Source: a virus
IMG/VR virus record: IMGVR_UViG_3300021964_000198
Location: 1-37,148 of that record
DNA length: 37,148 nucleotides
Direction: 5' to 3' (one strand)
The notes beneath the pieces are model-generated. The model was not told the origin of the DNA, made no database searches, and worked only from the letters and a program-made list of their open reading frames with translations. A program made the position numbers and the translations under genes. This document shows positions 1 to 35,378 of the stretch, piece after piece. Every line of letters begins with the position of its first letter. Within the stretch, counting starts at the first letter, position 1.

Positions 1-458
1 ATGTCTTTGTAACGCATAGGATCTGTTGCAATGCCTACTTCAATCTCAGTATCAGTGTTAACATTGGCATGTAAAAAGTCAATCCAACGCTCTAAGTAGC
101 CAATGTCTTGCTCTAAGAAGGTTGTAGTAAACGCAAGTATTGGAGAGTTTTCATTTATCATAGCCAGCAAGTCAGGATCTTGCATTACTTGATAAAAGTT
201 TTCACTACTTAGGCAGTCTGTTGGTCCTATTAGTACTTCATCTACTAATATGCCTTTGTCAGTTATGCGTTTTACAAACTCTCGGCACTGTTTTAAGTGG
301 TTGTCTTCAGGTGCATTGCCTCTACGGTGTACAAAGCAGCCCGGACAAGCGTGTACACACCCGTCTAACACGTCTAACTGTATTTTTACGGCACTAACCG
401 GCTTGGTTTGTGTTTCTGTTGTTAGCTCGTAGTACAAGTTGTTCTTAATGACTGGCAT
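1..458 (-). CDS. Radical SAM enzyme C (third paralogue), C-terminal part beyond the window
   Basis: The reading frame is open from an ATG at 458 to the left edge (152 residues seen). It has the radical SAM 4Fe-4S motif CVHACPGCF, with Cys at residues 34, 38 and 41 (CxxxCxxC), and IGPTD at 77-81, placed as in the two genes upstream. Radical SAM enzymes use this cluster to cleave S-adenosylmethionine and start radical chemistry; the substrate is unknown here. The start overlaps the end of the preceding radical SAM gene by 14 bp and has a good ribosome site, AAGGAG, seven bases before the ATG, so it belongs to the same transcript. The C-terminal half lies outside the window, so I cannot tell whether it has the extra Cys cluster seen in the other two. 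It is too different in context from NrdG or QueE to be called either. Radical SAM call sure; role inferred. Confidence 0.85.
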   Translation of the reverse strand, partial: MPVIKNNLYYELTTETQTKPVSAVKIQLDVLDGCVHACPGCFVHRRGNAPEDNHLKQCREFVKRITDKGILVDEVLIGPTDCLSSENFYQVMQDPDLLAMINENSPILAFTTTFLEQDIGYLERWIDFLHANVNTDTEIEVGIATDPMRYKD

Positions 459-1473
459 TTAGGTACTCCTTGGGCAACACACACTCGGTTAACCCTCTGT
501 CTTGCATGTAAAACAATACATTACGCTCTGCACAGCTCATTAAATGAGGACAACTCGCACATTCTTGAGTATGTTCAGCATATGCAAGGTTGCGAGACAA
601 GAAATCGTCACTGTTTATGTTTTGTACTTCAAAGTTTGGTGTGCGTTGTAGTATAGCATCGTACAAAAACGGGTTCATATACAGTTTACCATTGTAAAAG
701 CTGTAGTTAGAGCATCCATAGCCATTAAACTGTGCGTCAAACATAGTATACAGGCTTTTGTACTCGAGGTCAATCTTTTGTTTGCTTAGTTCTTCAATAA
801 ACATGGGCAAATATTTACTTACTTTGCCTCTACTGTTACGGTCGTTAAGGAAACTTGGTAGTATGACTACAGGAGCATTAAAATCTTCCATGGTCATATC
901 ACACAGTTGGTTGTAATCAACACGATCAAATATGCCCGGGTAGTAGTTTACCCTAAACTGCACACTACCTTGTTTAAACAGTTCAAGTTTGCGACACATA
1001 TCTTCAACATCGCCACGCAAGTAACGCTCAATGTCAAGCACTATCTTAAAGTCTATATCAGGTGTACGATTTAAGCCTTCGTAAAGGCTCCAAATCTTGT
1101 TGTGTTTAGCAAGTATTATGTTGTAGTCTTGTAGTAGCGTTGAGTTAAAACTTAATGCTGCAATGTTGTACAATCGTTTCATACTAGGATGCTCCATCAA
1201 CTCCCAAAAGTTTTCAGCATCAAATATATCAGTAGGTCCTATCACAACATCGTCGGGTGTGTAAGCACTAGATTCTAGTATATCGCACAGAGTTGTTAAA
1301 TGATCAGCACTGGTTAAGTTTTTGCGTGGGATAAAACAGCCAGGACATTGTTGACTACAGCCGTGTAATATATCAGCATGAACTTCAACCCTAAGAAAGT
1401 TATTATCCCTAGGGCTTACACCTTCAACGTAGTTATTAAATCCAGATGGAGTTGCGTTTAAGTTAACGAGCAT
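445..1473 (-). CDS. Radical SAM enzyme B with SPASM/twitch-like C-terminal Cys cluster
   Basis: A protein of 342 residues. The N-terminal part has CSQQCPGCF with Cys at 39, 43 and 46, the CxxxCxxC motif that holds the SAM-cleaving 4Fe-4S cluster. IGPTD follows at 78-82, a motif shared with both neighbours and probably specific to this group. Near the C-terminus Cys 305, 308, 314 and 331 form CxxCx5Cx16C, like the auxiliary-cluster region of SPASM or twitch radical SAM enzymes, which often modify peptides. The gene starts inside the last 11 bp of the enzyme upstream, so the two are probably translationally coupled; its own ribosome site is weak. The length fits a single-domain peptide-modifying enzyme. 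Fold and cofactor are well supported; that it acts on the CHxS proteins at 4415-5175 is inferred from position only. Confidence 0.9.
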   Translation of the reverse strand: MLVNLNATPSGFNNYVEGVSPRDNNFLRVEVHADILHGCSQQCPGCFIPRKNLTSADHLTTLCDILESSAYTPDDVVIGPTDIFDAENFWELMEHPSMKRLYNIAALSFNSTLLQDYNIILAKHNKIWSLYEGLNRTPDIDFKIVLDIERYLRGDVEDMCRKLELFKQGSVQFRVNYYPGIFDRVDYNQLCDMTMEDFNAPVVILPSFLNDRNSRGKVSKYLPMFIEELSKQKIDLEYKSLYTMFDAQFNGYGCSNYSFYNGKLYMNPFLYDAILQRTPNFEVQNINSDDFLSRNLAYAEHTQECASCPHLMSCAERNVLFYMQDRGLTECVLPKEYLNASH

Positions 1474-2644
1474 TGACGATTTTCAAGGCATCGTCATTCC
1501 ATTGCTCTGTGCTGTCAATAAACGGATTGTACATTTCAAGTACTTCTAGCGGCATCAGGCACTCATGCATATTCATAGCGTCTTGTGCTTGGAATATTAG
1601 TCTGTTTGCACATGCTACAGCATACTTACAATCAGCACAATCCTTAACAGTGGAAGACTTTGCCAAGCCTTTTGCTATTAGTTGATCCCTCTTCGCTAAG
1701 ATTTCTTCAAAACTTAGACCTGTTACTTCTAGTTCCTTGTGCTGTGTAAAGAACGCTTGTTCGTGTAGCATAACATTTAGGAATACACGAGGTGCGTCAA
1801 AGCCAGGAATAATAGTTAGCCCTATAAAGTTCATTGAGTTACAGTACAAGTTAGCCATACTCATTGTAACATCAGTATAGTTGTCTTGATCTACTACTTC
1901 TTTTAAGAAGTTATTCCATGCTACTAGATTCTTACGCTGGTGTAATACACTTGGTGCTCTAGAGAACGCAGGGTTCATTTCTAGAATAGTTTCGTAATCT
2001 TCAAGAATCTTGTATAGCAGTTTGTTGTAGTTTTCTTTGGTTAGATGTTTTTGCATAACATTACTTGCTTGTAATGTCCAACTCCAGTCAATGTTTTTAG
2101 GAGTTTCATTTGCAAAGAACTCTAGTTTTGCTTTTATGTCTTTGAAATATTCTTCATCATTAAGTATACGGTCAACATCACCTACTGGCATAATAAACTC
2201 AATGATCATTTCATCTCTGTATTTTGCAGGATCGTCAAGTATTGAAAATACTTCACGTAGTCTTTCCATGCTTACATCGTCTATTTTGCTAGGTGTAGCA
2301 ATACGTGCTTTTGTATGCTCACGCATGATGTCCTGTATAATAGGATTATTAAGAATATTGTCTGTGTTATTTGCCGAGAAAAGATCAGTCGGACCAATAA
2401 CAAACTCACGTAGGTTAAGTCCAGTGCGTGTTACACCATCTGCAAGTTCTTTTGCAGTTGTTAACATTTGATCCATTGTTGCAACGTCTTGTGTTTTATT
2501 AACAAAACACCCTAAACAACCATGATTACAACCAGTAAGCCCTTCAAAGTTAATCAGTACATCAAACTTTGTGGCTTGGCTAGGTGGTAGACTCTCAGGT
2601 CCACTGTATCTCATCTGCTTGCAATATGATTGTTGCATTGTCAT
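1463..2644 (-). CDS. Radical SAM enzyme A with SPASM/twitch-like C-terminal Cys cluster
   Basis: A protein of 393 residues, first of three tandem radical SAM genes. It has CNHGCLGCF with Cys at 39, 43 and 46, at the same positions as in the next gene, then IGPTD at 83-87. The C-terminal Cys 336, 339, 345 and 362 make CxxCx5Cx16C with the same spacing as enzyme B, and both have a Pro-x-Glu shortly after the last Cys. The rest of the sequence is diverged, so this is an old duplication. The ATG at 2644 shares one base with the stop of the upstream gene (TAATG), which suggests coupled translation; a second ATG two codons on is an alternative start. It probably carries one SAM-cleaving cluster and at least one auxiliary cluster. 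The substrate is unknown; nearby Cys-rich proteins are the obvious candidates. Confidence 0.9.
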   Translation of the reverse strand: MTMQQSYCKQMRYSGPESLPPSQATKFDVLINFEGLTGCNHGCLGCFVNKTQDVATMDQMLTTAKELADGVTRTGLNLREFVIGPTDLFSANNTDNILNNPIIQDIMREHTKARIATPSKIDDVSMERLREVFSILDDPAKYRDEMIIEFIMPVGDVDRILNDEEYFKDIKAKLEFFANETPKNIDWSWTLQASNVMQKHLTKENYNKLLYKILEDYETILEMNPAFSRAPSVLHQRKNLVAWNNFLKEVVDQDNYTDVTMSMANLYCNSMNFIGLTIIPGFDAPRVFLNVMLHEQAFFTQHKELEVTGLSFEEILAKRDQLIAKGLAKSSTVKDCADCKYAVACANRLIFQAQDAMNMHECLMPLEVLEMYNPFIDSTEQWNDDALKIVNAR

Positions 2645-3351
2645 TATGCTTCTTCCTCGTCAAATAGTTCTAACATATTAGTTGCAACACCGTATCTTAG
2701 AAGTGTATTATACAAATCGTTTCCTTGGTACTTACTTGCATCGTTAAATATTCTTGCATTTAACTGGTTAGTTGGCCAAGGACCGTTTAAGTGCCCTAAT
2801 AAGTATAAAAGATCTTGAGCGTATGTTGCTATGTATACAATATTTAGTCCAACTTCGGTATCGTTATCAACATGTTCTAAATCTTCTGGTATAAGTTCTT
2901 TATATTTGTCAGAATATTTACTTGCTTGTTCTAAACAAAAAAGCGTAACATGATTTAACTTATCAAGAAGATCGTCAAATAGATCTCCGTGCTCTGCAAG
3001 ATATTGATCAATCATTTCATCTGACCAAAGACTATTAAGTGCGATATCTATTTGGTTGTATTCGTAATCTAGTTTTCTTTTTGCAATCAGTGCTATTATT
3101 CTAGAAATAATCGGACTTTCTACCATAAAGTTACACTTAATGTATTCGTTTAAAAGATCTGCATCAACTGTATCAAACTGAACTTTAAAGTTTGTATTAG
3201 CAATATAAACTAATATGTGTTTTACAGACAGTACTTTTTTACTTTCTTCATAGTTAACATTTAACGTAAAATCTTCACTATCTGCTTTGATTTTATAAAT
3301 CTCTGCTAGATCGGTTGGGTTTAACGGTAATGTATAGCTTTGTTGGGTCAT
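2644..3351 (-). CDS. Unknown 235-aa protein of the radical SAM cassette
   Basis: I do not recognise this protein. I place the start at 3351 (MTQQSYTLPLN), because AGGAG lies five bases before that ATG and overlaps the upstream stop codon (caggagTAA). A longer frame to 3438 would run back into the upstream gene. The protein is acidic, probably mostly helical, has no membrane segment, few Cys and ends in a run of acidic residues. It sits two bases behind the 353-aa gene and shares one base with radical SAM enzyme A, so the three are made together. It could be a substrate-binding partner, a chaperone or a virion protein; nothing in the sequence decides between these. The coding call is strong from the spacing and ribosome site, the function is open. 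Confidence 0.8.
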   Translation of the reverse strand: MTQQSYTLPLNPTDLAEIYKIKADSEDFTLNVNYEESKKVLSVKHILVYIANTNFKVQFDTVDADLLNEYIKCNFMVESPIISRIIALIAKRKLDYEYNQIDIALNSLWSDEMIDQYLAEHGDLFDDLLDKLNHVTLFCLEQASKYSDKYKELIPEDLEHVDNDTEVGLNIVYIATYAQDLLYLLGHLNGPWPTNQLNARIFNDASKYQGNDLYNTLLRYGVATNMLELFDEEEA

Positions 3352-3353
3352 GA

Positions 3354-4415
3354 TTACTCCTGTACTAATGGTTTTACTTTGAACAACAAGTAAGGAATAC
3401 GACTCTTGCGCTTGTAGAAAAACTCTACCTCGCTCCACGCATCTCTAAGTGCTTCATTACTTGCAAAGTTGAATCCACCCTCTGCTATTTGTACCACAAT
3501 AGGAATAGTTTTAGAAAACTCTTTGTATACTTCTTCATATTCCCATTCTTCGTGATTATTAATAAGAGACATCAGCTCTTGATTATTGCCCACTGCATTC
3601 CAAAAATCACGCATTACATATAATGCTTGCATTCTGTTAGTATTTTGGAATGTATCTTTAACAAACTGTACTTTATCCCATTCATTGTTACCGTTAGCAT
3701 TAAACCAGTCAATAATACCGTTAATAACACTAATATAACCGATTTTAGTTTGTAGCATAGCAATAACTTCAAAAATCATTTTATCACTATGGATAGTAAA
3801 CTTTTCTCTTAAGTGTGCAGTAGTTGTTTCGTTGATTTCAGCATATGTATCATTTTCATTATACTTGTCGTTAATAAAGAAAAGAATATCATACCCCCAA
3901 TGCTTGCTCGAAGCATTTGGAATGCTATAAAAATCATTATTTGCAAATACATCTTCTACTGCTGCGTTTATTTCATTTTCAGTAAAAGTTGCTTCAGTTG
4001 CGTATGTAATATCTCTTAGAGTGACTAGGGAAAGAAAGTCTTTTGTTATTTGTTTAACATCTTTAGAAGTAGTAGTTTGTAACAACGAAGCAGTATATTT
4101 TGCATATATTTTTAAAAACTCTTCGGGATCTTCAAACAACAAATACTCTTTAGTGCTACTGTTTAAATATTCCCAAGAATCAATATCACTGTAGTTTGCA
4201 AAACTTATCATGTTGCTTACATTTGCTAACGGGTAGTCAGCAGTTATTGCGTCTGTATATGTTTGCTCAACCGGACTATGCCCGTCTGGCATGACTATTT
4301 TAATAGTCCTTGTTTGTCCTCCAGTCCACGGACTTTCACTGATTGCCGACAGCATTGCAGTCGAGCGTCCTATATATTTTTTATTACTAATATAGTAAAA
4401 ACTTTCACCTATCAT
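3354..4415 (-). CDS. Unknown 353-aa protein of the radical SAM cassette
   Basis: I do not recognise this protein. It starts at an ATG that shares one base with the stop of the second CHxS protein (TAATG); the purine-rich codons of that protein's GRR end (aaggggaaga) act as its ribosome site. The N-terminus, MIGESFYYISNKKYIGR, resembles short phage virion or head-tail proteins in style only. The remainder is rich in Asn, Glu, Phe and Tyr, looks mixed helical and soluble, and has no signal peptide, membrane span or Cys cluster. It lies between the putative substrates and the modifying enzymes, which makes it a candidate accessory factor or carrier of the CHxS proteins. An unrelated structural role in the tail fibre is equally possible. 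The coding call is firm; the function is not known. Confidence 0.8.
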   Translation of the reverse strand: MIGESFYYISNKKYIGRSTAMLSAISESPWTGGQTRTIKIVMPDGHSPVEQTYTDAITADYPLANVSNMISFANYSDIDSWEYLNSSTKEYLLFEDPEEFLKIYAKYTASLLQTTTSKDVKQITKDFLSLVTLRDITYATEATFTENEINAAVEDVFANNDFYSIPNASSKHWGYDILFFINDKYNENDTYAEINETTTAHLREKFTIHSDKMIFEVIAMLQTKIGYISVINGIIDWFNANGNNEWDKVQFVKDTFQNTNRMQALYVMRDFWNAVGNNQELMSLINNHEEWEYEEVYKEFSKTIPIVVQIAEGGFNFASNEALRDAWSEVEFFYKRKSRIPYLLFKVKPLVQE

Positions 4416-4801
4416 TATCTTCTTCCCCTTGATCCGTGGCAGCTATAGTGGCAGCTTGCGTGACATATTCTAAAGTCAAAATACAAGTTGTCAATACGAT
4501 TTTCAACTGTATTTACAGTTCTTGACAATGCATTTGTAGCAAAGTTTTGTATTTCACTTGCATAGACTTTTAAATCATCGCCAATGTTGCTCGGCAAGTC
4601 TGCTGTGCTATATGTACCAGAACCTGCATTTACATATTGGAACCTAGCATTGCCATATGCTGTTCCTCCAGTTACACCTACACCAGATCGTCCAAGATAA
4701 ACTGCTGCTGCAATATTAATAGTTTTATCAAATGTTCTCAGTCTGAGATAAGCATTTGCTAGATATGTTGATCTTAACTGTGCGTTAGTTTGTCCAGCCA
4801 T
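4415..4801 (-). CDS. CHxS-tail protein 2, candidate modified or metal-binding peptide/virion protein
   Basis: A protein of 128 residues, paralogue of the gene just upstream. It aligns with that copy without gaps around FDKTINIAAAVY (FDRTINVAATVY in the other) and again at GTAYGNARFQYVNA. A probable helix leads into the C-terminal tail CHASCHYSCHGSRGRR, which is three CHxS units followed by a basic end. The body is clearly more diverged than the tail. Seven of the eight codon differences between the two tails are silent, which shows selection on the protein. The start shares a base with the upstream stop (TAATG), with GAGG inside the preceding GRR codons as ribosome site. Small size, a conserved Cys/His tail and radical SAM neighbours suggest a precursor-like substrate. 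It could instead be a fibre-tip protein holding metal ions through the tail. Confidence 0.85.
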   Translation of the reverse strand: MAGQTNAQLRSTYLANAYLRLRTFDKTINIAAAVYLGRSGVGVTGGTAYGNARFQYVNAGSGTYSTADLPSNIGDDLKVYASEIQNFATNALSRTVNTVENRIDNLYFDFRICHASCHYSCHGSRGRR

Positions 4802-5175
4802 TATCTTCTACCTCTCGAACCGTGACAGCTATAATGGCAGCTAGTATGACATATTTGAAAGTTAAAATATCTGTTTGTCAGTCTGCCTTCTATCAAATCT
4901 ACTGTCCTTTGTATAGCATTTAATGCTTGATCAACCATATGCTGTGCATCAACTAGCGTTGTATTAGGATATACTTGACTATTATAGTCGCTGTTTGGAG
5001 CATTTACATACTCAAAACGAGTATTACCGTAAGCAGTACCTGCATTGTAGCCGCCATAGTTTTGATTAGTATAAACTGTAGCAGCTACATTTATTGTACG
5101 GTCAAAACCGCGCAGCTGGGCTCCGGCTTGGCCAGTAAAATAATCCCTTGCTGATGCACGAGTCATATTCCCCAT
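4801..5175 (-). CDS. CHxS-tail protein 1, candidate modified or metal-binding peptide/virion protein
   Basis: A protein of 124 residues that begins three bases after the giant fibre gene. The ATG at 5175 makes it collinear with its paralogue (Phe24-Asp25 in both); an ATG three codons later has GGGG before it and is an alternative start. The parts are a short N-terminus, FDRTINVAATVY, a Gly/Asn/Tyr-rich stretch, GTAYGNTRFEYVNA, an amphipathic helix near residues 75-100 and the tail CHTSCHYSCHGSRGRR. The tail has three Cys and three His in an exact four-residue register, which is unusual for a cytosolic phage protein. The position suggests it is made in step with the tail fibre. I infer it is either a radical SAM substrate or a metal-stapled tip or adaptor. 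I saw no matching tail in the rest of the window. Confidence 0.85.
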   Translation of the reverse strand: MGNMTRASARDYFTGQAGAQLRGFDRTINVAATVYTNQNYGGYNAGTAYGNTRFEYVNAPNSDYNSQVYPNTTLVDAQHMVDQALNAIQRTVDLIEGRLTNRYFNFQICHTSCHYSCHGSRGRR

Positions 5176-5178
5176 ATC

Positions 5179-8100
5179 TTAAACTTTCACCTCAACTACG
5201 CTTTCGCCGTCTTCAATAGCAACACCTATTAATCTTGTATATTCACTAATAGTACTTAGCTCATCTACAGCACAACCTGCACCGTCCTGATCAGCAATAA
5301 TGTACTGACCTTTCTTGGCAGAACCGTTGATCTTAACAGGAACACGACCTTTTAGTGCAACAAATGGCCACATAGGATCATCTCTGTTGTCATCGTTTTG
5401 ATTCATCATCAAACCTGGTTGTGTTGATACAACGCCTGCTAGTTTCATGCCTTCTTTGTATAGTGTAACTTCTTTGTCGCCGCCTATACCTAGTACTGTA
5501 CCTGGAGCATATACTGCATCTGCTTCGTATTTCTCTGCTAAGTCAGCCCAGTTAGCACTTGCAGCAGTACCTTGGTACACACCGCTGTTATCAACGTATG
5601 AAACATCTGTTCCGTCTCGTCTAAACTGAACAACACGATCGGAGTTTGCACCCGATGCTATGTAGAATCTGTTAGCGTGATATTCAATCTTACCAACATC
5701 ATTACCTGGGTTACCAGTCCATTGTTCGTTAGCGTTTTCGTAGAATCTCCAACCTGGTGATACACCGTCGTTGTTGTAGCTACGTAGTGCCCAGTTGCCA
5801 TCTTCGTTTAGGAAGCCCTGTGATACATCATCTGCATATAGTCTACCGTAAATAGTGTTTGCACTGTTTGCTAGTGATACTTCACATGATCCACTGTTTG
5901 CACTGCGCATATGGATTCTGTTAGTAGCTTGTGGATAAATGTGCCATCCAGCGTAGTTGCCACCTTCCCAGTAAATACCCGAGTTACTTTCAATGCGTAC
6001 CCAGTTATCAACATACAGTTCGCCTGCAATGTTTGCACCGTTGGAACGTGTTTGAACTTTCCACGCACCATTGTACATCATTTCAGTTTGAGCGTTGTGT
6101 ACACCGTAGAACAACCATTCGTTATCTACATCGTTATAGATACCAGTTCCACTTCCGCCATCATGCATAAACACTGCACGACCGTCAATGCTAAAGCCTT
6201 CCCAGTTACCATAACCACTACCGCTAATCTGAATCGAACCGTAGTTTCCTGTTGGCTCTCTCAAGTAACGTGTAGTTTGGTTACCTACTGCAATAAACTG
6301 TTTAACAACTAGTCGACCATCTGTTGTAAGTGACATAGCACCCGCTGCTACACCGTCACTTTCATGTCTCCATTTCCAACCACGGTCTGTATCATTGTTC
6401 ATTGTAAAGGTCATTGCATAGTCATTCAACCAACCCATTGTTTGGCCACTATGCATGCCTATTGAGTATGAACTACTGTTCCACACACGTAGTTTATCGT
6501 AGCTGTCGCCGCCATAACCGTCAATAAAACCAATGTTGTAACGTGTACCACTTGCAAACAAGTCTGGGAATGTACCAGCGTTTAGATTACTTGCATTACG
6601 GAAGAACCCGCTGTCTTGACCGTCTAGTAAGTCAGCATCTAGTCCGCTACCGCTACCGTCGTTACCAGCATGCCATACTTTAAATGCACTTGCTCCACGT
6701 GACCAACCACCGTATGCTAGATCGTTTGTACTACCATCTAAACCAAAGTGTGCTGCATAGTCACCACCAATGTGGAATGTCATGAATGCATCATTTGCAT
6801 TTGCGCCATTTCCTTGGTATAGCTGTAGTGTGTTAACTTCGCCAGTGTTTTGAATAGTTGTTGCTGGTAGTGAGATTGTAAATACACCACCACTAAACGA
6901 AGCACCAGTATCAACACGTAGGAAGCTGTCTGCATGCAATCCGTCTAGCAAGTCTGCGTTTAAGCCTGAGCCGTCACCGTCGTTGTCAGCAGTCCAAATA
7001 GCACCACCGTTAATGTAACCTGTTGTAGCATTAAAGCTACCGTTAACATCTAAGTTGTATGTGCCGCTTGGATCTTTGTTAATACCAACTTTGCCATCGC
7101 CTCTAGCACTGAATACAATATTACCGTTAGTTTGACTTACGTCATTGTTAACACGGAAGAATGTAGTTGCTGCACTGTTGTTTGAGTTAGTATCAAGTCT
7201 TACGTTAACGTTGTGATAAGAGTTAATACTAATATCATCACCTGCGCCCCATGTTTCGCCACGTGAGCTAATACCATGGTTTACATAACCACCTAAGTTT
7301 CCGTAGTTACCATCCCAGTCAAAGCTAATAGCGTGTACTTTAGCAAGTTCGCCTGTTGTGCCACCGCTTGAAATAAAGCGTCTGTTAGTGTCAATAACTT
7401 CTACACCACTTACGTTGTAGCTGTTACCATCAATAGCACCAGTTAGTGTAAGTTCAGCAGCAACTAAGTTACCACCAACATACAAGTTCTTACCAAAGCT
7501 ACCACCACCGTCTACACGTAGAGCACCTGTTGTAGTACTTGTTGATTGGTCTGCACTGTTAACGTGCAAGTAACCACTTGATGCACCAATGTCAATAGCA
7601 GTTGCAGCACCACCAATGTTAAGTGTTGTTGCAGTAGTGTTTAATAAGTCAAACGCTGCTTGATTAGTGTTTAAGCTAGTTGCATTTACATTTACTGTTT
7701 TGTTTAAATCAACAGATGTACCATCAAACTGTGCAACCAGTGAGCTAGTTTGAATGCCACTTCCTGATCCAATATTTTCTGAACCATAAATGTCAACTCT
7801 TGCGCCAGCGCCTGAACCTGTACCAGGTCCTGGTTTTAGTTCTAACACAGAACCGTTAACGTTAAACTGACCAGTAATAGGTCCTTTAACACCAACTGTT
7901 GCAGTTTGTCTAGATCCTTGTGATCCTCTACCAAACTCTAGTTTATGACTGTGTGCATCAGTACCACTAACTTCTACACGATTGATTTGTGTATTCGAAG
8001 TACTACCCGAAGTACCTGGGCTACCTGTATCAATAAATACCGAACCTGGAACACCACTACCAGTACTTGCACCACCTTGTATTGTTAAGTCTGGACCTTG

Positions 8101-11100
8101 CTTGTTAGTACCTAGTGCATTTGTTGCTTTAACAATAGCATCAACTGGTTGTGTTTCAACTTGGTCACCGCCAACAATAAGTGTCTTGTTACGAATACGC
8201 ATTTCACCAGTTTTGTCAGCACCAATAGTAACTGCTGTTGCAGCTCTACCAATGCTTAGTGATGTAACTGTGTTATCATAAACAGTAGCACTTGTTTTAG
8301 TTGTTTTGATATCTCCGCCTTCAACAGTAAAGTCTCCGTCGATGGTTAAGTTACCTATTGAATCGAGCACCATACGTTCTGCTGAGAAACCTGCTGACAT
8401 CAAGTTAAACTTGAAGCTAAAGTCTTCTGAGCCAAATGTTACGTCAGATGCAACAGCATCAATAGTACCGCCGACTTCTCTGTTGTTGTTTGCAGTTTCT
8501 ACTTGGAACTGCATACCAACACCAATACCTACTGCTGGTGTGTTAGACACATCGTGGCGTATTTCGAGTGGTCTTGAAACTCCAAAGTTGTTAGTATCTT
8601 CTACGAATGGAGCAACATCATTTGACCAACTTGGATTACCTAGTTCGTCAACAACCATAACAGCACCTTGGCTACCAATCGGTAGTCTGTTTAGTGTTGT
8701 TGGGCCAGTTGCATAAATCATATCGCCTGAGATATATTGATCTAACGCTGTACCGCCGCGTGTTACCGGAACTGGATTTAATAAGTTACCTGGATCTAGG
8801 AAGTACTGGCTATCAAGTCCGTCTAGTGTACCTGCATCAAGTACGCCTGCTTTTAGTTCTACTTCGCCTGCGTTAACATTAAACTGTGCTTTACTAAATG
8901 CTGCAACACCGACGTTTGTAAAACTTTGGTTACCTAAGCTGTCATCAGTTCTGTCAATATCAAACTGGACATCTTTATAGTAATAGTTTTGTCCACCGCT
9001 AGTGTAGAAGCTACCAGTCATGTTTAACGGAGAGTTAAGTGCAGTACGTGTAGTTCTTGTAGCAAGATCCCAACTGCTATCACCTTTCAAGTAAGTGTCA
9101 CTGTTTGCTGTGCCAACTGACGCAAGTCTTGAAGTACTAATAACACCCGATACAATGTTACTTGCATCTACGTTTGCACTACCAGTTAGTGCCCAGTTAG
9201 CAGTATTTTTACTTGATGTGTTAACTTCTCCGTATATTGTAATGTTTTGGTGTATAAAGTCTGCACTTCCGCTACCAGTTTGTACAAAGTTAATAGCACC
9301 CTGTGTTACACCGTTAACACTTTGTATAGCGTCTTGTTGGAACTCGTGTACTGAGAAAGTATTTTGACTTACTGTCCCTGCATAGTAGTAAGAACCTGAT
9401 GCCATTCCAGTTGGAGGGTTAGAACTTACAAAACGGAATGCTTGTCCATTTGTAAAGCCGTGATCTTGAGCATAAATGCGATCTTTACGTGTATCAACAT
9501 TGTTAATAATAAGTGCATGTGTGCCAGTTGAACTCGAAGTAAATGTTACTTTTTGTCCTGGTTCTAGATCGTATCTGTTATAAAGCTCAATAGTGTTTGC
9601 GTCAATAACTTTTACAAAGTAACTTTCGCCTTGTAGCAATCCGCCGATTGGAGTGTTTGGCGAGCTTGCATAGTTAACAACATCGCCATCATCAAATATA
9701 TGACTGTTGATTTCGATAGTCGATGTAGGATAATCAACATTACCGCCATTTCCAATAGTGTCTGCGTTAAACGCTGTTAGTGTTGTATTACCTAGTGCAA
9801 CTGTAGTTACATCTGCATTTGTATCTTCAGTGTAATCATTTGAAGTTGTAGTAGCAATAAACTTACCTGCTAACAAATCAACATAAACACGGTTGTCAAC
9901 ACTACTAATACTAGTTTGGAAGTCTTGTGTGTTTTGACCGCCTAAGTTTGCTGTTGCAGCACTTACAATGTTACCTTGTACATACCCAGAGCCACCTCTA
10001 GTTAAGTCAATGTTAGTAACTTGTCCGTTAGTAACTGTAATGTCAGCAATAGCACCGCTGCCGCTTCCTGTTATATTAGTTAGCGGAACGTTTCTATATG
10101 TTAAAGAACCTGTGCTAGGAACATAGCCTGCACCTGTGCTAATATTAGCAAGATCAACTGCAAGGGCAACACCTTCAACTTGATCAGTAACAACACCTTG
10201 TGTTCTTGAGTTAGCTGCTGTAATAGTTGTTCCATTAGTAAAGATAGCACCTGTAGGTAGATATCTCAAGTACTGGCTATCACTATCTTGAATCATTGTG
10301 TACTGAATATCACGTGTTTCAGTAGAGCCACTATTAGTAATATAAGTTGTAGTATTTTGGCCATTTACATTTAGTGTGTTAGCACTAATATTATTACTAA
10401 ACGTTCCGACAATGTTTGCAATATAAACTGTTGCTGCGCCGCCGTTGTCTTCATCAACAATACCAGTTGCGCCGCTGTTTAGTTCTACAATAATATCATC
10501 TTCATTAAATGTAGCAGGAGCACTCAATGTAAACAGTGTACGTGAGTAACGCTCTTGTGCAATATCGCCTTGTAGTGGTTCTTGTGGCGGAATATCATCA
10601 GTTAAATCATATCTGCCGTATTTTAGATCAGTTGTAAACAAGCTAAAGTTACGTGTTGCAGGAATAATATCTGAGTTTAACAAACCTTGTGCGTTCATTT
10701 GCGGAACAGCACCACTAACTGAGTTAGTAGATACGTTCTTGTCAATAAAGTCGCCTAGTCTGTTTGCTAAGAAGCTACGCTGTGCTAACTGTGTTGTCAA
10801 ACGTGTATCAGTTGCGCCGCCTGGTTCGTTATCACCTAGTCCTGGATCAGTTGAAATCGCTTCAATAACAACATCCGAAACTGCAAGTTTCAGTGCTGAT
10901 AGTTCGCCAACTGTAACTGTGTTCTTAAATGTAATGTTACCAGTTCTGTTTTCTGCAACAATGAAGTCACCAACTTTAAAGTCACCAAGTTCGTTAGTAC
11001 CTGAAGAGTAAACTCGTCCTGGTAAGTCACTAAACTGTTCGTATTCTTCTCTTGTAATACCGCCGTTCTGTGGTAGAGCGTTATAGTCTGTACCTGAACC

Positions 11101-14100
11101 TGCGTATTCCCAAGTGTGTGATGAACTGTTAACAATACTTGGTCTGTGGAAACGTATATATGTTCCTTGCAGGTTACCAGTATTAGTTAGTACACCGCCA
11201 ACAATAGTTGGATCAATAGTAAACTCTGCTGTAAACAAGTCTGTTCTAGATGTAAATCCAGTTACAGGAATGTTTGACTGCGGAATAGCACTACTATCAC
11301 TGTCGATTATTGAAGTAGCATCAAAGAAGATTCTAGTCAACTGTCCGCTGTTTTCTGCCTTTTCTACAGAAACAGTAAGTTGTCGAGTTACTGCATCATA
11401 TGTGTAAACGTAGGCTTTGTTTCTATAAATGCCAGTAGTTGCTTCAATCAAGTCACCTGGTTCAAAGTTGTATGTTCCAGCTGCAAGAGTTAGTACTTGA
11501 TACTTATTGTGTGTTTGTTTATTACCATCACCGTCTAAGATGATTTCATCAATAAAGAACTCTTCAGTTTGAGTTTCTAAATAATGATCTCCTGTTGATG
11601 CTGCGATTATGTCTGCAACAAATCCTCTTGAATCATCTTGATAAAGTCTAATAATGTCTGCTGTCAGTACTTCTACATAGTATTGACCTTGGTCAGCAAG
11701 TCCATTAATCTCGTTGTTGCCGTTTCTACGATATGTTACTGCGTCACCTGTTACAAGCCCGTGTCCTGGAATAGTAATAGTGTTAGCATCTAAGTCAAGA
11801 TTACCTTCTGCGTATACAGGATAGTTAGTGCCACTAAACGTCATTTCAGTAAGAGTTACATTATCACTTACTGACGGAAGTGCAGTTACTTCGATCGCCA
11901 ACGCACCGCTAGTATTATCGTATGTTGCACTAATAACATTTGCAGGACTTCCTGCGCCGTTGATGTCAACAGTACCGCCCGAAACATATGATCCTAAACT
12001 TAGTCCTGCGGCAATCTGTACAGTAAATGTTGTAGCACCAACTGCTGCAACAGTGTACGTATCTGCATCACCGTATAGTGTACCTACTTCTCCTGAGTTA
12101 AAGTAGATTAGGTTTGGAATAGTTTTAAAGTTGTTAGTAATGTCGTTTGCTAAGTTGTTAAACTCGTCATCGTCGTACAATCTGATAACAAACTGGTTGA
12201 TCGGAGTACGTTTAGTACCAACAGTAATAAGTTTTTGTTGTGATGCTTGAGCACCAACTTCAGCAATAACACCACGGTCAAACACAAAGCTGTTTGCAGA
12301 GTAACCTGACGAACGTAGTGCGTATAGACCAAAGTTAGTTGCAGAGTTAGTAACAGAAAGGTAAGCACCTGACTGACACCAACAACCGTTGCCAAGGAAG
12401 ATTTGGAAACAGGAAACGATCTGTGCATAAGCATCGTTAGTTAGACGCCAACCAGTACCACCAAATGATAGCATAGTATATGCGTTTGCAACCATTGACT
12501 TACCTTGTTCAGGTGTTTCACCAAATACTGGATTTTCTGCTTCAATAGCAAAACGTGGAATGTTTGGTGTAATAACTTTCGAACCATCTACTAAACAACC
12601 ACTTAGTCCTAGGAACGAAATAATAGATACGTTCTGCACATACGGTGACTGTGTAATAAGTGGACGATCCCTTAGTCCAATATATCCTGTACGATCAACA
12701 CCTTCGTCAAACGGGTCGTCAAATGCTGTACAGAATCTACCAGTAAAGCTAGGCACGTTAAATGCATCTAGACCATCTTTAAATGTAATACCTAACAAGT
12801 AACAACCGTTACGTACACGGAAAATATCTTGGTTAGCATTTAGTGGACGAATAATAGTTGTACGCAAGTTGTCGCCAACAACGGATACATAGTCTGGAAT
12901 AATAACTGGGTTATCTTCTTTGTATTCACCAGTTGATACCATAATAGTTGTGTATGCAATGTTAAATGCACCTTCAACTTCTGTTGGAATGTTTGGCGAA
13001 AGAGGACCGTTTTCAATAATATCAATAATAGTATTGAACTCAGATTCAACAATACCAAGTATTGCACCGTCAACGGATTTAGTTTGATCTGTAATCTGTC
13101 CAACTTGATTTTGATACAGTCTAGTATTAACAATATTTTGTAGTACATTGTCTACAAGTGTTTGGAAATATCTATTAGCAATAACAGTCTGGAACTCTTG
13201 TCCTTGGATTACGCTAGTAGTACCAATGTAGTATGCTTTACCTGCTTCAATAGCACGTTCGTTACCACCGTAGATTAAATCGTATTGGATAGCGTCAATG
13301 AACAATCCAACGTCTCTACGACAGAATGAAACATCATATGTAAAGTTAGTAAAGTATGTGTTAATATAGCTAACAACTTCAGCTTGTATAAACGTTCTGT
13401 TAAGTGCAATCAAGTCTGCTGCATTTAGCACTGTTTGATTAGTACTTGGAACAATACCATTTCTAAATACTACAATACCTGCACTTGCACTTGCACCGTC
13501 AACAACAATGTCTTCAATAAGTGCGCCAAGGTCTGCAATCTTAGTAATAGCTGCTACACTACCTGGATTTAACGTGTCTGTAACTTGTGCTGCACCTGTT
13601 TGCCAACTAATAATATCATAGTTTTCAACAACTTGTTGAGCAAGTCTAACAGCATGCATAATGCCGTCTAGTGTTTGCACTAACTGACGTTGTAGTGTAA
13701 ATGCACTGCTTTGCTTAAAGTATGCAATCGCCGCTGCAACAGTGTTTGAAGTTCCGCCCCATGTTAAATCAAAGTTAATAGCATCAAGTATATAACCTAC
13801 ATCACGTTTACAAGTTGTCTGATTGTATCCAGTTGAGAAGTTAATCCAACTTGCATCGACATATGCAACTACTTCTTTTTGTATGAATGTTTTGTTAGAT
13901 GTAATCAGTGCGCCTGCATCAAGAATGTCTTGATCAGTAGTTAATGCACCGTTAGCAGTAACGTTAATGTACTGACTCTGTCCGTCATCAACGACATCAA
14001 TAATAATATCAGCAAGTGCGCCAATAGTGTTTGCACTTGTAACATCACCCGGATTTGCACCGTCAAATACTTGCGGAGTTGATGAATATGTTGTGTCAAC

Positions 14101-16941
14101 AGTTACGTTACGAACAACTTTTTGTGCTAGATCTTTTAAGTGATTTAGACCAGCAAGTGTTTCTGTACGCTGACCACTTACTACAATAGCTGCTGCTTGT
14201 CTGTAATATGCAACTGCGGCTGCAATACTGTTTGTGTTACCGCCGTGTGTTAAGTCATATGCAATAGCATCAATGATTAGTTCAACGTCTCGACGACATG
14301 AGTTTTGATCATAAGTTAGTCCAGGATACAGATCATTAATATATCCTAGTACTTCTTCTTGTATAAATGCAGTGTTTGCTTGTATTAGTGCTTCTGCATT
14401 TAACGCTCCTGTACTAGTAGTTTTTGTAAAGCTGTTAGTTGTACCAAGTCCGTTGCTTAGAATAGTTAAAATAGTGTTTGCTCTATTGTAAACTAACTCT
14501 GCTACTGTGTTAGTGCTTGGATTTGCAGGATCAAGAGTTTGTGTAAATGTACTTTGGAAAAGATTTGAAACACTGTTTTGTATAACAACGTTTGCTAGTA
14601 AATCTCTTGTGTACTCAACAGCATCTATTGTAGGCTGTAACTGTGCTTGAAGAACTCCAATAGCATCGCCCGTAATCTCGCCTGTACCAGTAGTTACGTT
14701 GTTGTAGTAACTAATACCTGCAAAAATACTTTCAGCATCGCCGCCGTGTTCGATATCGTATTTAACAGCGTCAATAAGTAGTCCTACATCGCGCTCGCAT
14801 TTAACAGGGTCGTATGTAAAGTTACCAAAGTTTTCTCTAATAAACGCAACTGTTTCAGCCTGAATAAACTCTTTGTTAGCAGCAAGTATAGCGTTTGCGT
14901 TTATTACATCTTGTACTACACTAGGAACAGAGTTGTTCGGGTCAATGTTTAGACCAAGAGGAGTACTGTCGCCATCAGTGATAATATCATCTATTACTGT
15001 TTGCAACCCTGAAATAATAGTCTGGGTTGCGGAATCGCCTGGATTATTAGTGTCAGTAAACTGAGCAAAAACACTTTGATAGCTTGTAGCAGGTGCTTGG
15101 TTAACAATAACTAGTTTTGCTAAGTCGATTGCGTAGTTAATACCATCAAGTGTTTCAGTTAGCTGACTGTTTAGTGTATTGCTTGCACTGTACTGATAGT
15201 ATGCTAGTGCTGCTTGAATGCTTTCGTTATTACCACCGTGTGTAACATCATAGCGAATAGCATCAAGTATTAGCTCTACATCTCTACGACATTTGTTTTG
15301 GTCATATGTAAATGCAGGATATGTTGCAGTCAAGTAACCTATAACTTCTTCTTTAATAAAGTCAGTGTTTTGAGTAATAAGTGTATCTGAGTTTAGTTTG
15401 CCAGTGTCGGTAGTTAGCGCACCGTTAGCAGTACCAATACCGGTGTTCAACAAACCGTATGTTATACTAAAGTTATTATAAACTGCTGTTGCTTCAAGTG
15501 ATGTACCAGGCGTTAATGTTGTATCTTGTACTACGTCTGTTTGATACAAATAGTCAACAGTTTCACCTAGAACAACTTTTTGCGCAATACGTCTTGCATA
15601 ATCAATACCAGCAAGAGTTTGAAATCTTTGATCAGCACGTAGAGTTGACGCAGTTGCATTTAGATATGCAACACCTGCGTAGTGTGATTCTGCATTACCG
15701 CTATAAAGTAAATCATAGTTTGCAGCATCAAGTATTAGTCCAGTATCACGTGAACACTTAGCTTCGTCAAAGTTAAATCCGCTATATTTTTGATTTAGGA
15801 ATGCAATAACTTCTTCTTGAATAAATGTTTTGTTGTTATCAATAAGTGTTTCTGCATTTAAGAAACCTGTGTCTTGTGTTTTAGTTTCGTTAGGCGAATC
15901 ACCAACACCGTCAACGTAGTAATCTACAACTTTTTGTCCAAGTGCGCTTACTGTTGCTGCTTCTGCAGATGTTGCTGTTTTAGTACCATCAAACTGCTGT
16001 GCTACTTGTGCCTGCGTTGTGTCTGTAACAGTAGTGTTAGTAACTACTGCTGCTGCAATCTCTTGGGCTCTACGAAGTCCGTATTCTGTTGCAACATTTT
16101 GTGCTTGTTTTACTAAAGCTGAACTTTCAAGTGCATAAAATGCACCAGCTACGCTTGTAGCTGCATCACCGCCGTATCGTAAATCGTTTTCAATCGCATC
16201 AACAATGAGTCCAACGTCTCTTTCACACTTTGCTTGATCGTAAGTAATGTTAAATGCGTTTGAGCTAAATGCAACAACTTCGTCTTGTAAAAAGTCTCTG
16301 TTAACTTCTAATAAGTCTTTAGCATTGTATGCTGATTGACCTGGATCAACAACTGGAGTAAAGATACCATCTGATGCAATCTGTGCAGCACGTTTAATAG
16401 TTTTAACTGGTTGCAAACGTCCGTCATTTGTATCGTCACCGTATTCGGCACTTACATAGATTCTGTTGCCACCTAATGAACCTGGGTCGCTCCATTTAGT
16501 TTGTCCAAATCCTAAGTTTTGTAATATTTGACCTTTACGTGCATCAGAGTCGGGAAGAATAATATCGTATGACTCTTCTAGTTCAGAAGGTGCTTTAATA
16601 TTTACTGAGCTGTCGCCAAACTGACTTAGTTCTTTTAGTTTAATAGATCCTTGATCGTCTATTTCTAAGTCATCAGAAACATAAACTTTTGTTCCGTCTA
16701 CACGTAGCTTTTCAATACCATCAACTTCCATAGTAACAACACCGTTACCTTGATCGTTGACAACAACTCGTGTATCGCCTTTTTCTATTTGTTGTGTTAC
16801 ATCTTTAATAGTGCCATCGGACGTTTTAATAAACATCTTACCATCAGCTGTGTTTATTGCGATCTCGCCTAAGTCTAGCTGTGTTGATGTTGGTTCTTGT
16901 CCACTAACATTATTTCTTTTGTGTAATATTTTGTTTGCCAT
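5179..16941 (-). CDS. Giant 3920-aa tail-fibre-like structural protein
   Basis: One uninterrupted frame of 3920 codons. The N-terminus (KRNNVSGQEPTSTQLDLGEIAINTADGKMFIK split over residues 8-39) is the attachment-type sequence common to phage fibres. At 160-190 a beta-helix style entry (IYVSAEYGDDTNDG, then KTIKRAA) is followed by seven repeats of about 161 residues (about 205-1315). The beta-helix then resumes near 1320 (MVSTGEYKEDNPVIIPDYVSVVG). The second half has many short fibre repeats, including TTGALRVDGG and several LDADLLDG units near 2900-3100. The C-terminus (WADLAEKYEADAVYAPGTVLG onwards in pieces) resembles the end domain of other marine phage fibres. A late promoter and a GGGAAG ribosome site precede the start. 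It is probably a host-binding or distal tail structure. Identity as a structural fibre is strong; the exact part is not known. Confidence 0.9.
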   Translation of the reverse strand: MANKILHKRNNVSGQEPTSTQLDLGEIAINTADGKMFIKTSDGTIKDVTQQIEKGDTRVVVNDQGNGVVTMEVDGIEKLRVDGTKVYVSDDLEIDDQGSIKLKELSQFGDSSVNIKAPSELEESYDIILPDSDARKGQILQNLGFGQTKWSDPGSLGGNRIYVSAEYGDDTNDGRLQPVKTIKRAAQIASDGIFTPVVDPGQSAYNAKDLLEVNRDFLQDEVVAFSSNAFNITYDQAKCERDVGLIVDAIENDLRYGGDAATSVAGAFYALESSALVKQAQNVATEYGLRRAQEIAAAVVTNTTVTDTTQAQVAQQFDGTKTATSAEAATVSALGQKVVDYYVDGVGDSPNETKTQDTGFLNAETLIDNNKTFIQEEVIAFLNQKYSGFNFDEAKCSRDTGLILDAANYDLLYSGNAESHYAGVAYLNATASTLRADQRFQTLAGIDYARRIAQKVVLGETVDYLYQTDVVQDTTLTPGTSLEATAVYNNFSITYGLLNTGIGTANGALTTDTGKLNSDTLITQNTDFIKEEVIGYLTATYPAFTYDQNKCRRDVELILDAIRYDVTHGGNNESIQAALAYYQYSASNTLNSQLTETLDGINYAIDLAKLVIVNQAPATSYQSVFAQFTDTNNPGDSATQTIISGLQTVIDDIITDGDSTPLGLNIDPNNSVPSVVQDVINANAILAANKEFIQAETVAFIRENFGNFTYDPVKCERDVGLLIDAVKYDIEHGGDAESIFAGISYYNNVTTGTGEITGDAIGVLQAQLQPTIDAVEYTRDLLANVVIQNSVSNLFQSTFTQTLDPANPSTNTVAELVYNRANTILTILSNGLGTTNSFTKTTSTGALNAEALIQANTAFIQEEVLGYINDLYPGLTYDQNSCRRDVELIIDAIAYDLTHGGNTNSIAAAVAYYRQAAAIVVSGQRTETLAGLNHLKDLAQKVVRNVTVDTTYSSTPQVFDGANPGDVTSANTIGALADIIIDVVDDGQSQYINVTANGALTTDQDILDAGALITSNKTFIQKEVVAYVDASWINFSTGYNQTTCKRDVGYILDAINFDLTWGGTSNTVAAAIAYFKQSSAFTLQRQLVQTLDGIMHAVRLAQQVVENYDIISWQTGAAQVTDTLNPGSVAAITKIADLGALIEDIVVDGASASAGIVVFRNGIVPSTNQTVLNAADLIALNRTFIQAEVVSYINTYFTNFTYDVSFCRRDVGLFIDAIQYDLIYGGNERAIEAGKAYYIGTTSVIQGQEFQTVIANRYFQTLVDNVLQNIVNTRLYQNQVGQITDQTKSVDGAILGIVESEFNTIIDIIENGPLSPNIPTEVEGAFNIAYTTIMVSTGEYKEDNPVIIPDYVSVVGDNLRTTIIRPLNANQDIFRVRNGCYLLGITFKDGLDAFNVPSFTGRFCTAFDDPFDEGVDRTGYIGLRDRPLITQSPYVQNVSIISFLGLSGCLVDGSKVITPNIPRFAIEAENPVFGETPEQGKSMVANAYTMLSFGGTGWRLTNDAYAQIVSCFQIFLGNGCWCQSGAYLSVTNSATNFGLYALRSSGYSANSFVFDRGVIAEVGAQASQQKLITVGTKRTPINQFVIRLYDDDEFNNLANDITNNFKTIPNLIYFNSGEVGTLYGDADTYTVAAVGATTFTVQIAAGLSLGSYVSGGTVDINGAGSPANVISATYDNTSGALAIEVTALPSVSDNVTLTEMTFSGTNYPVYAEGNLDLDANTITIPGHGLVTGDAVTYRRNGNNEINGLADQGQYYVEVLTADIIRLYQDDSRGFVADIIAASTGDHYLETQTEEFFIDEIILDGDGNKQTHNKYQVLTLAAGTYNFEPGDLIEATTGIYRNKAYVYTYDAVTRQLTVSVEKAENSGQLTRIFFDATSIIDSDSSAIPQSNIPVTGFTSRTDLFTAEFTIDPTIVGGVLTNTGNLQGTYIRFHRPSIVNSSSHTWEYAGSGTDYNALPQNGGITREEYEQFSDLPGRVYSSGTNELGDFKVGDFIVAENRTGNITFKNTVTVGELSALKLAVSDVVIEAISTDPGLGDNEPGGATDTRLTTQLAQRSFLANRLGDFIDKNVSTNSVSGAVPQMNAQGLLNSDIIPATRNFSLFTTDLKYGRYDLTDDIPPQEPLQGDIAQERYSRTLFTLSAPATFNEDDIIVELNSGATGIVDEDNGGAATVYIANIVGTFSNNISANTLNVNGQNTTTYITNSGSTETRDIQYTMIQDSDSQYLRYLPTGAIFTNGTTITAANSRTQGVVTDQVEGVALAVDLANISTGAGYVPSTGSLTYRNVPLTNITGSGSGAIADITVTNGQVTNIDLTRGGSGYVQGNIVSAATANLGGQNTQDFQTSISSVDNRVYVDLLAGKFIATTTSNDYTEDTNADVTTVALGNTTLTAFNADTIGNGGNVDYPTSTIEINSHIFDDGDVVNYASSPNTPIGGLLQGESYFVKVIDANTIELYNRYDLEPGQKVTFTSSSTGTHALIINNVDTRKDRIYAQDHGFTNGQAFRFVSSNPPTGMASGSYYYAGTVSQNTFSVHEFQQDAIQSVNGVTQGAINFVQTGSGSADFIHQNITIYGEVNTSSKNTANWALTGSANVDASNIVSGVISTSRLASVGTANSDTYLKGDSSWDLATRTTRTALNSPLNMTGSFYTSGGQNYYYKDVQFDIDRTDDSLGNQSFTNVGVAAFSKAQFNVNAGEVELKAGVLDAGTLDGLDSQYFLDPGNLLNPVPVTRGGTALDQYISGDMIYATGPTTLNRLPIGSQGAVMVVDELGNPSWSNDVAPFVEDTNNFGVSRPLEIRHDVSNTPAVGIGVGMQFQVETANNNREVGGTIDAVASDVTFGSEDFSFKFNLMSAGFSAERMVLDSIGNLTIDGDFTVEGGDIKTTKTSATVYDNTVTSLSIGRAATAVTIGADKTGEMRIRNKTLIVGGDQVETQPVDAIVKATNALGTNKQGPDLTIQGGASTGSGVPGSVFIDTGSPGTSGSTSNTQINRVEVSGTDAHSHKLEFGRGSQGSRQTATVGVKGPITGQFNVNGSVLELKPGPGTGSGAGARVDIYGSENIGSGSGIQTSSLVAQFDGTSVDLNKTVNVNATSLNTNQAAFDLLNTTATTLNIGGAATAIDIGASSGYLHVNSADQSTSTTTGALRVDGGGSFGKNLYVGGNLVAAELTLTGAIDGNSYNVSGVEVIDTNRRFISSGGTTGELAKVHAISFDWDGNYGNLGGYVNHGISSRGETWGAGDDISINSYHNVNVRLDTNSNNSAATTFFRVNNDVSQTNGNIVFSARGDGKVGINKDPSGTYNLDVNGSFNATTGYINGGAIWTADNDGDGSGLNADLLDGLHADSFLRVDTGASFSGGVFTISLPATTIQNTGEVNTLQLYQGNGANANDAFMTFHIGGDYAAHFGLDGSTNDLAYGGWSRGASAFKVWHAGNDGSGSGLDADLLDGQDSGFFRNASNLNAGTFPDLFASGTRYNIGFIDGYGGDSYDKLRVWNSSSYSIGMHSGQTMGWLNDYAMTFTMNNDTDRGWKWRHESDGVAAGAMSLTTDGRLVVKQFIAVGNQTTRYLREPTGNYGSIQISGSGYGNWEGFSIDGRAVFMHDGGSGTGIYNDVDNEWLFYGVHNAQTEMMYNGAWKVQTRSNGANIAGELYVDNWVRIESNSGIYWEGGNYAGWHIYPQATNRIHMRSANSGSCEVSLANSANTIYGRLYADDVSQGFLNEDGNWALRSYNNDGVSPGWRFYENANEQWTGNPGNDVGKIEYHANRFYIASGANSDRVVQFRRDGTDVSYVDNSGVYQGTAASANWADLAEKYEADAVYAPGTVLGIGGDKEVTLYKEGMKLAGVVSTQPGLMMNQNDDNRDDPMWPFVALKGRVPVKINGSAKKGQYIIADQDGAGCAVDELSTISEYTRLIGVAIEDGESVVEVKV
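12997..16329 (-). repeat. Seven tandem ~161-residue repeats inside the giant fibre protein
   Basis: Each unit has a pattern of the type LIxxNKxFIQxEVxAF, then YDQxKCxRDVGLIxDAIxYD, then GGN and a helical end with a Q-rich and LAGIxYA-like part. The conserved Cys falls at residue 239 in the first unit and at about 1207 in the seventh, giving a mean step near 161 residues. Each unit has one such Cys. The units are diverged, so this is an old expansion and not a recent slippage event. Limits are approximate. The repeats interrupt what is a continuous beta-helix entry in the 1500-aa fibre protein upstream. Confidence 0.85.
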
Positions 16942-34928: not shown

Positions 34929-35378
34929 TTATGTGTTGGATTGTTTTGCCTTGATGCTATGTTCTAGCAATGCCTTTTTGAGTTTGTCTGATCCGCCTAC
35001 TCTAACATTAATAATGCCATTGTAGTAGTCGTCTGTTTCTAATACTCGACGATCAAACTGTTCTCTTGCCTCAATGTATGACATTTCTGCCCGTGATTTG
35101 CAAAGGTATAGTATTTCTCTTGTGAAGTTTTCTGGGCCTAGTGCAGTGACGTCAGCGTTAAGTCTATCTGAGCTGCCCCAGTAGTCTTTCCAATCGCTTT
35201 CTTTAGTGCTTCTTCTTTTATTTTTCTTGCCTTTAAGTGGAGGTTTAGTTACTTTAAACTTGGCTAGTTTTTTGCCTATATATTTTTGCCCAGTAGTGAG
35301 ATTAGTGATAAGATAAACAAAGCCTTCATACTCGTCTGGTATTGTGTCTACTTGTTTCCCTTGATAAGTCCACTGCAT
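34929..35378 (-). CDS. GIY-YIG-type endonuclease-like protein (149 aa)
   Basis: The GIY-YIG fold is seen as VYL (21-23) and YIG (33-35), spaced as usual, followed by a basic stretch (PPLKGKKNKRRS), WGSS near 67, Arg87 in FTREIL, Glu103 in YIEAREQF and Asn120 in YYNGIIN. These match the conserved Arg, Glu and Asn of the family. Such proteins in T4-like phages are homing-type (Seg) or repair-type nucleases. It has no visible extra DNA-binding domain, so it is a compact version. It stands between the gp46 operon and the long non-coding region; a free-standing homing nuclease next to essential genes is common. The ribosome site is weak. The nuclease class is likely; target and role are unknown. 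Confidence 0.75.
   Translation of the reverse strand: MQWTYQGKQVDTIPDEYEGFVYLITNLTTGQKYIGKKLAKFKVTKPPLKGKKNKRRSTKESDWKDYWGSSDRLNADVTALGPENFTREILYLCKSRAEMSYIEAREQFDRRVLETDDYYNGIINVRVGGSDKLKKALLEHSIKAKQSNT

Follow-up and report, generated by a model that had tools for sequence, protein, structure and literature searches.

In the bacterial His-Xaa-Ser system (HxsA/HxsB/HxsC/HxsD; NCBIfam TIGR03976-TIGR03979), an HxS-containing target is accompanied by more than one radical SAM (rSAM) enzyme, the pair HxsB/HxsC modifying HxS motifs in an HxsA-like protein. The rSAM/SPASM maturases of RiPPs, such as PapB (ranthipeptide), CteB (SCIFF), SuiB, DynA, ChlB and EpeE, combine a radical SAM core with SPASM/twitch auxiliary clusters and act on a short peptide with an excised leader, while the anaerobic sulfatase-maturating enzyme (anSME) modifies a Cys or Ser inside a folded protein. 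In phages, small adhesins such as gp38 of T-even phages are encoded directly downstream of long tail-fibre genes. The PHROG families phrog_35144 (CHxS), phrog_1802 and phrog_31457 (rSAM) and phrog_20767 already hold individual proteins of the kind studied here, but they are catalogued as of unknown function or as 'radical SAM domain'. Literature searches on rSAM genes in connection with jumbo phages, cupins, RiPPs, tail fibres, SPASM domains and virion proteomes, which reached few subscription papers and preprints, found only genome announcements listing 'radical SAM' genes without a function and no described system linking these families.

The locus examined here lies in IMG/VR virus record IMGVR_UViG_3300021964_000198, of which the whole stretch of 37,148 nucleotides, referred to as the window, was analysed. 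Two small paralogous proteins with a CHxS-CHxS-CHxS-RGRR C-terminus are encoded between a long tail-fibre-type gene and a set of rSAM genes. The parts are as follows, with families numbered from a clustering of 1353 neighbouring proteins and loci given L numbers.

5179..16941, minus strand: 3920-aa tail-fibre-type protein directly upstream of the cluster (phrog_19602, tail fibre, E 2e-19); its C-terminal domain recurs directly upstream of the cluster in many phages.
4801..5175, minus strand: CHxS-tail protein 1 (124 aa), ending in ICHTSCHYSCHGSRGRR, tail codons at 4804-4854; phrog_35144 (unknown function), E 3e-7.
4415..4801, minus strand: CHxS-tail protein 2 (128 aa), ending in ICHASCHYSCHGSRGRR, tail codons at 4418-4468; its start codon overlaps the stop of protein 1 by one base; phrog_35144, E 1e-8.
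3354..4415, minus strand: 353-aa cluster protein of unknown function (family 14), conserved next to the CHxS pair; no Pfam, NCBIfam, PADLOC or PDB match of significance.
2644..3351, minus strand: 235-aa cluster protein of unknown function (family 15), homologous to family 3 / phrog_20767 found downstream of CHxS genes in other phages (hhalign probability 99%); the ORF was listed as 264 aa from a GTG start at 3438, overlapping the 353-aa gene, but relatives support the ATG at 3351.
1463..2644, minus strand: radical SAM enzyme 1 (393 aa), with the cluster motif CNHGCLGC at residues 39-46 and auxiliary-cluster cysteines 336/339/345/362.
445..1473, minus strand: radical SAM enzyme 2 (342 aa), with the motif CSQQCPGC and a C-terminal CASCPHLMSC; same family as enzyme 1 (phrog_31457).
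3..458, minus strand: start of a third radical SAM enzyme (152 aa, CVHACPGC), cut off by the window edge; the relatives L001-L004 continue with at least three more rSAM genes.

The first-pass annotation had stated that the final 17 codons of the two paralogues differ at eight codons, seven silently and one changing Thr to Ala, and this observation was confirmed to the codon. Nei-Gojobori analysis of the pair gave a pN of 0.024 and a pS of 0.83 for the tail, and a pN of 0.444 and a pS of 0.75 for the body. Synonymous sites are saturated in both parts, so that recent gene conversion of the tail, which had been named in advance as an observation that would overturn the claim, is ruled out. The proposed separate comparison of body and tail was made among five orthologous phages, where the summed pN/pS was 0.065 (tail) against 0.222 (body) for paralogue 1, and 0.091 against 0.398 for paralogue 2. 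The DNA pattern for CHxxCHxxCHxxRxRR occurs exactly twice in the window, with 0 expected from shuffles.

A scan of IMG/VR for CHxxCHxxCHxxRxRR, with all x positions left free, returned at least 120 stretches. Together with four loci found from the window protein, 118 of 124 viral loci hold a protein that ends precisely with the motif. The bodies range from about 120 to 360 aa and fall into 58 clusters at 50% identity; two broad families were aligned and are related by profile (hhalign 99.4%), with the tail contributing much to this match. Free variation of the tail in a wider alignment was the other condition set beforehand against the claim, and it was not observed: across the 58 body clusters the three Ser positions are S in 47, 43 and 52 of 58, with Asn as the main alternative, and the Gly before the final RR is present in 52 of 58, although the search pattern left those positions open. 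C, H and R were fixed by that search, but they are equally invariant in 80 tails found without using the tail. One locus (L040, 8105-8878, minus strand) has a CHxx tail with four instead of three repeats (CHSNCHSNCHSNCHTNRSRR). In GTDB genomes only 16 of 88 pattern matches end a protein; many of the rest are low-complexity, arginine-rich or other-frame translations, so the scan itself shows what chance matches look like, and chance was rejected as the source of the viral tails. Named carriers are Burkholderia phages FLC6, FLC8 and SURPRISE13, Pseudomonas phage SNUABM_DT01, Agrobacterium phage Atu_ph07 and Sinorhizobium phage Phosso, which are jumbo phages of at least two unrelated groups (phiKZ-like and T4/Rak2-like).

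Clustering of the neighbouring proteins demonstrated a recurrent gene order of fibre, cupin protein, rSAM (family 2), CHxS protein, 240-aa protein, 370-aa protein, and then rSAMs of families 4, 10, 0 and 9 and a 2OG-Fe(II) oxygenase. In the window the order is fibre, CHxS, CHxS, 353 aa, 235 aa and three rSAMs, the 235-aa protein being homologous to the 240-aa family; no cupin or oxygenase was detected in window-type clusters within the sequence seen. Equivalence of the 353-aa family 14 with family 8 of other phages was not shown. The two conserved proteins of unknown fold (families 8/14 and 3/15) accompany CHxS genes in most phages and are possibly assembly chaperones or substrate carriers. 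Sequence searches of the CHxS, 353-aa and 235-aa families against PDB gave nothing convincing. In FLC6 (L008), two genes annotated as dihydrofolate reductase (gp77-gp78, 12783-13996) lie inside the rSAM cluster, an annotation that may be wrong or may point to a cofactor need, and a GIY-YIG nuclease gene, possibly a homing endonuclease, is inserted between fibre-side genes and the cupin (5019-5927).

Of 138 tail loci, 130 show an rSAM by HMM, and the other eight are fragments ending close to the tail. All 48 loci with at least 6 kb downstream hold three to nine rSAM genes. To avoid circularity, viral contigs were searched with the family-2 rSAM alignment alone and the sequence following the gene was inspected, with five named-phage loci added. 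Of 85 loci, 80 have the exact C-terminal motif downstream, whereas the other five end within 245 bases of the rSAM and are thus uninformative, so that the coupling is 80 of 80 informative loci.

The family-2 rSAM, which is adjacent to the tail gene in most phages, matches peptide maturase models (PapB, DynA and others) far below equivalog cut-offs, but passes the NCBIfam SPASM domain cut-off (TIGR04085, 30.2 bits, cut-off 27) and has the complete SPASM cysteine signature, CX9-15GX4C ... CX2CX5CX3C ... C, in 78 of 78 enzymes. The window's own family (family 0, phrog_31457, catalogued as of unknown function) is too diverged for Pfam, does not have the full signature and keeps a CX2CX4-6C set only (107 of 109). 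It does have the CxxxCxxC motif of the radical SAM superfamily in the N-terminal part, with C39, C43 and C46 invariant across 40 sequences and the motif present in 107 of 109 family members as well as in the third, partial copy. For the 393-aa protein, the Pfam Radical_SAM model was not reached and a sequence profile alone found no PDB chain; the two rSAM families represented by alignments A2 and A4 align only weakly by profile (29.7% probability, E 6e-4), so a structure prediction was needed. AlphaFold2 on an alignment of 40 gave pLDDT 86.3 and pTM 0.88, and the predicted fold, obtained for this protein only, is the partial TIM barrel of rSAM enzymes, with the best structural matches to anSME (Z 14.4, sequence identity about 11%), ChlB (14.1), SuiB (13.7) and CteB (13.0), all enzymes that modify proteins or peptides, above viperin and MoaA (about 11). 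The near-invariant C336/C339/C345/C362 together with C39/C43/C46 presumably correspond to one auxiliary cluster and the radical SAM cluster. In contrast, the CHxS body was modelled with only modest confidence (pLDDT 68, pTM 0.45) and gave no credible match in viral or PDB libraries. Structure prediction used window and IMG/VR loci only, without rows from named phage records.

The gene block sits with fibre and baseplate genes. Fibre families 5/12 lie upstream in 68 of the 91 loci that show any upstream gene, and these fibres, like that of the window, match tail-fibre PHROGs. In the N-terminal half of the window fibre, translated segments of similar pattern (EEVIAFL...FTYD..KC.RDVGLIVDAI..D...GG) recur many times. 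The Atu_ph07 proteome paper reports that most virion proteins, as defined by mass spectrometry, fall in blocks CDS 31-76, 170-215 and 284-329 (PMC6102473). Gene 170 is the CHxS protein, and the numbering in the paper agrees with RefSeq for the portal (gp198) and prohead core (gp204) proteins. Other outer marks, gp31 (a tail fibre) and gp215 (the major capsid protein), belong to classes that the paper says were detected, so the block edges are probably detected proteins. This is an inference from a cluster boundary, made without the supplementary peptide table, and leaves the presence of the CHxS protein in purified particles probable but undecided. Virion mass-spectrometry data also exist for Ralstonia phage RP31 (PMC5468394).

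CHxS genes with rSAMs were also found in genomes of the predatory Bacteriovoracaceae, Bdellovibrionaceae and Halobacteriovoraceae, including next to apparently ordinary chromosomal genes as judged from their translations (GalU-like in L187, an ABC-F-type ATPase in L211). A phage-derived origin of these loci is not excluded. Within the class of genome G001, 5 of 129 genomes match. In the Bdellovibrionota loci L139 and L216, a protein near the CHxS gene fuses a type IV pilin N-terminal methylation signal to Peptidase_S74, the chaperone domain of phage fibres, hinting at pilus-anchored phage-fibre-like adhesins in predatory bacteria. Bdellovibrio uses S74-bearing trimeric fibres for prey recognition (PMC10769870).

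Taken together, the reading favoured here, with reasonable but not full confidence, is that the window carries a phage-encoded, RiPP-like protein-modification cluster. In this view, the two CHxS proteins are precursors whose diverged bodies act as scaffold/leader and direct the enzymes to the C-terminal tail, [VIY]-C-H-x-S-C-H-x-S-C-H-x-S-R-G-R-R, which is the modified core. Several rSAM enzymes with SPASM/twitch-type auxiliary clusters, joined in many relatives by the cupin-domain protein and the 2-oxoglutarate/Fe(II) oxygenase, would act on the three CHxS repeats one after another, the likely products being C-S or C-C cross-links or oxidised side chains on Cys, His and Ser. The modified protein would then be built into the virion, most likely at or near the tip of the long tail fibre encoded just upstream, where the hardened or metal-binding peptide would help contact or pierce the host envelope. 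The analysis itself demonstrates the conservation of the tail, the coupling of the genes, the predicted rSAM fold and the proximity to the fibre, and the virion location has the support of one published proteome; the pairing of enzymes and substrate is strongly supported, but that the tail is the substrate, which bonds are made and the role in attachment are inferred, the last from gene position only. rSAM genes beside a gene do not prove that it is their substrate, no leader-binding RRE domain was recognised, modification was not measured here, and no mass or structure of any tail is known to us. The interpretation in the first-pass annotation, that the tail is the functional part, 'like a core peptide or a metal site', is supported, and of its two alternatives the core-peptide or cross-link reading is favoured because of the coupling with peptide-modifying rSAM/SPASM-type enzymes; the enzyme genes, the fibre and the relatives had not been mentioned there.

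If this reading is true, phage particles carry enzymatically hardened or metal-binding peptides made by radical chemistry, a layer of virion maturation not described in the literature searched. It would give a function to several large phage protein families of unknown function, add a source of new rSAM enzymes acting on a short repeat substrate that can be moved onto other proteins in the laboratory, and offer a new angle on how large phages and predatory bacteria engage Gram-negative envelopes. A more far-reaching version is possible but tentative, namely that hundreds of jumbo and T4-like phages build into their particles, at the tail-fibre tip, a peptide cross-linked by a dedicated multi-enzyme radical SAM pathway (a virion-borne RiPP), and that some predatory Bdellovibrionota use the same module on pilin/fibre-like surface proteins to recognise prey.

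The strongest alternative, although unlikely, is an unmodified metal site, in which three Cys and three His per chain bind Zn, Fe or another metal directly, perhaps across a trimeric fibre tip as the HxH motifs of T4 gp37 bind iron, the rSAM genes serving another target. The Cys and His are strictly conserved in register, metal-loaded fibre tips occur in phages and no measurement excludes this; however, it explains neither the near-obligate coupling with three to nine rSAM genes nor the conservation of the Ser and the Gly, and a modified tail could still bind metal. Equally unlikely is a secreted or intracellular RiPP, the tail being modified, cut off and acting as a toxin, signal or superinfection-exclusion peptide. 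The core-like C-terminal tail and the many maturases resemble classical RiPP clusters, but bodies of 125-310 aa are long for leaders, the cluster sits with fibre/baseplate genes, and Atu_ph07 gp170 heads a virion-protein block. No protease or exporter was recognised by Pfam in the neighbourhood proteins scanned; as not every gene of every locus was covered, this does not settle whether a leader is removed. As regards defence, the window proteins matched no PADLOC model, while in locus L054 the rSAMs match pVip weakly (up to 35 bits) and the oxygenase matches a CRISPR-associated '2OG' model (24 bits), matches that fit general rSAM and 2OG-domain similarity and do not decide the matter either way.

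Membership in the His-Xaa-Ser system is refuted. The tail contains three HxS motifs, and family-2 rSAM matches the HxsB model (E 2e-8 to 3e-8) and family-10 the HxsC model (E 6e-8), but the scores of 33.3 and 32.0 bits lie far below the curated cut-offs of 370 and 267.9, and other rSAM models score as well or better. CHxS proteins match no NCBIfam model, and the CHxS and neighbour proteins of the window and of L054 and L122 gave no HxsA or HxsD match. The locus further differs in its four-residue CHxS repeats with invariant Cys and RxRR end, its phage structural setting and its three to nine rSAM genes. Covalent haem attachment, suggested by the CxxxCH spacing found twice in each tail, is very unlikely, as there is no canonical CxxCH, no cytochrome maturation genes were seen in the cluster, and the invariant RxRR end and the Ser would be unexplained.

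With respect to the RiPP maturases, the best sequence and structural matches of the rSAM enzymes are to this group, but all sequence matches fall below equivalog cut-offs, and the presumed substrate is the C-terminus of a large, probably virion-borne protein. The comparison with anSME rests on structure, no sulfatase being involved and the tail having three repeats. The small adhesins encoded after long fibre genes share the gene position only; sequence similarity to them was neither tested nor seen, and the rSAM cluster is new. On the favoured reading the locus works like an rSAM-RiPP system, but it is not a member of any named RiPP family tested. Near the other end of the window, a 149-aa ORF (34929-35378) translates to a sequence that looks like a GIY-YIG-type nuclease (VYLITNLTTGQKYIGKK).
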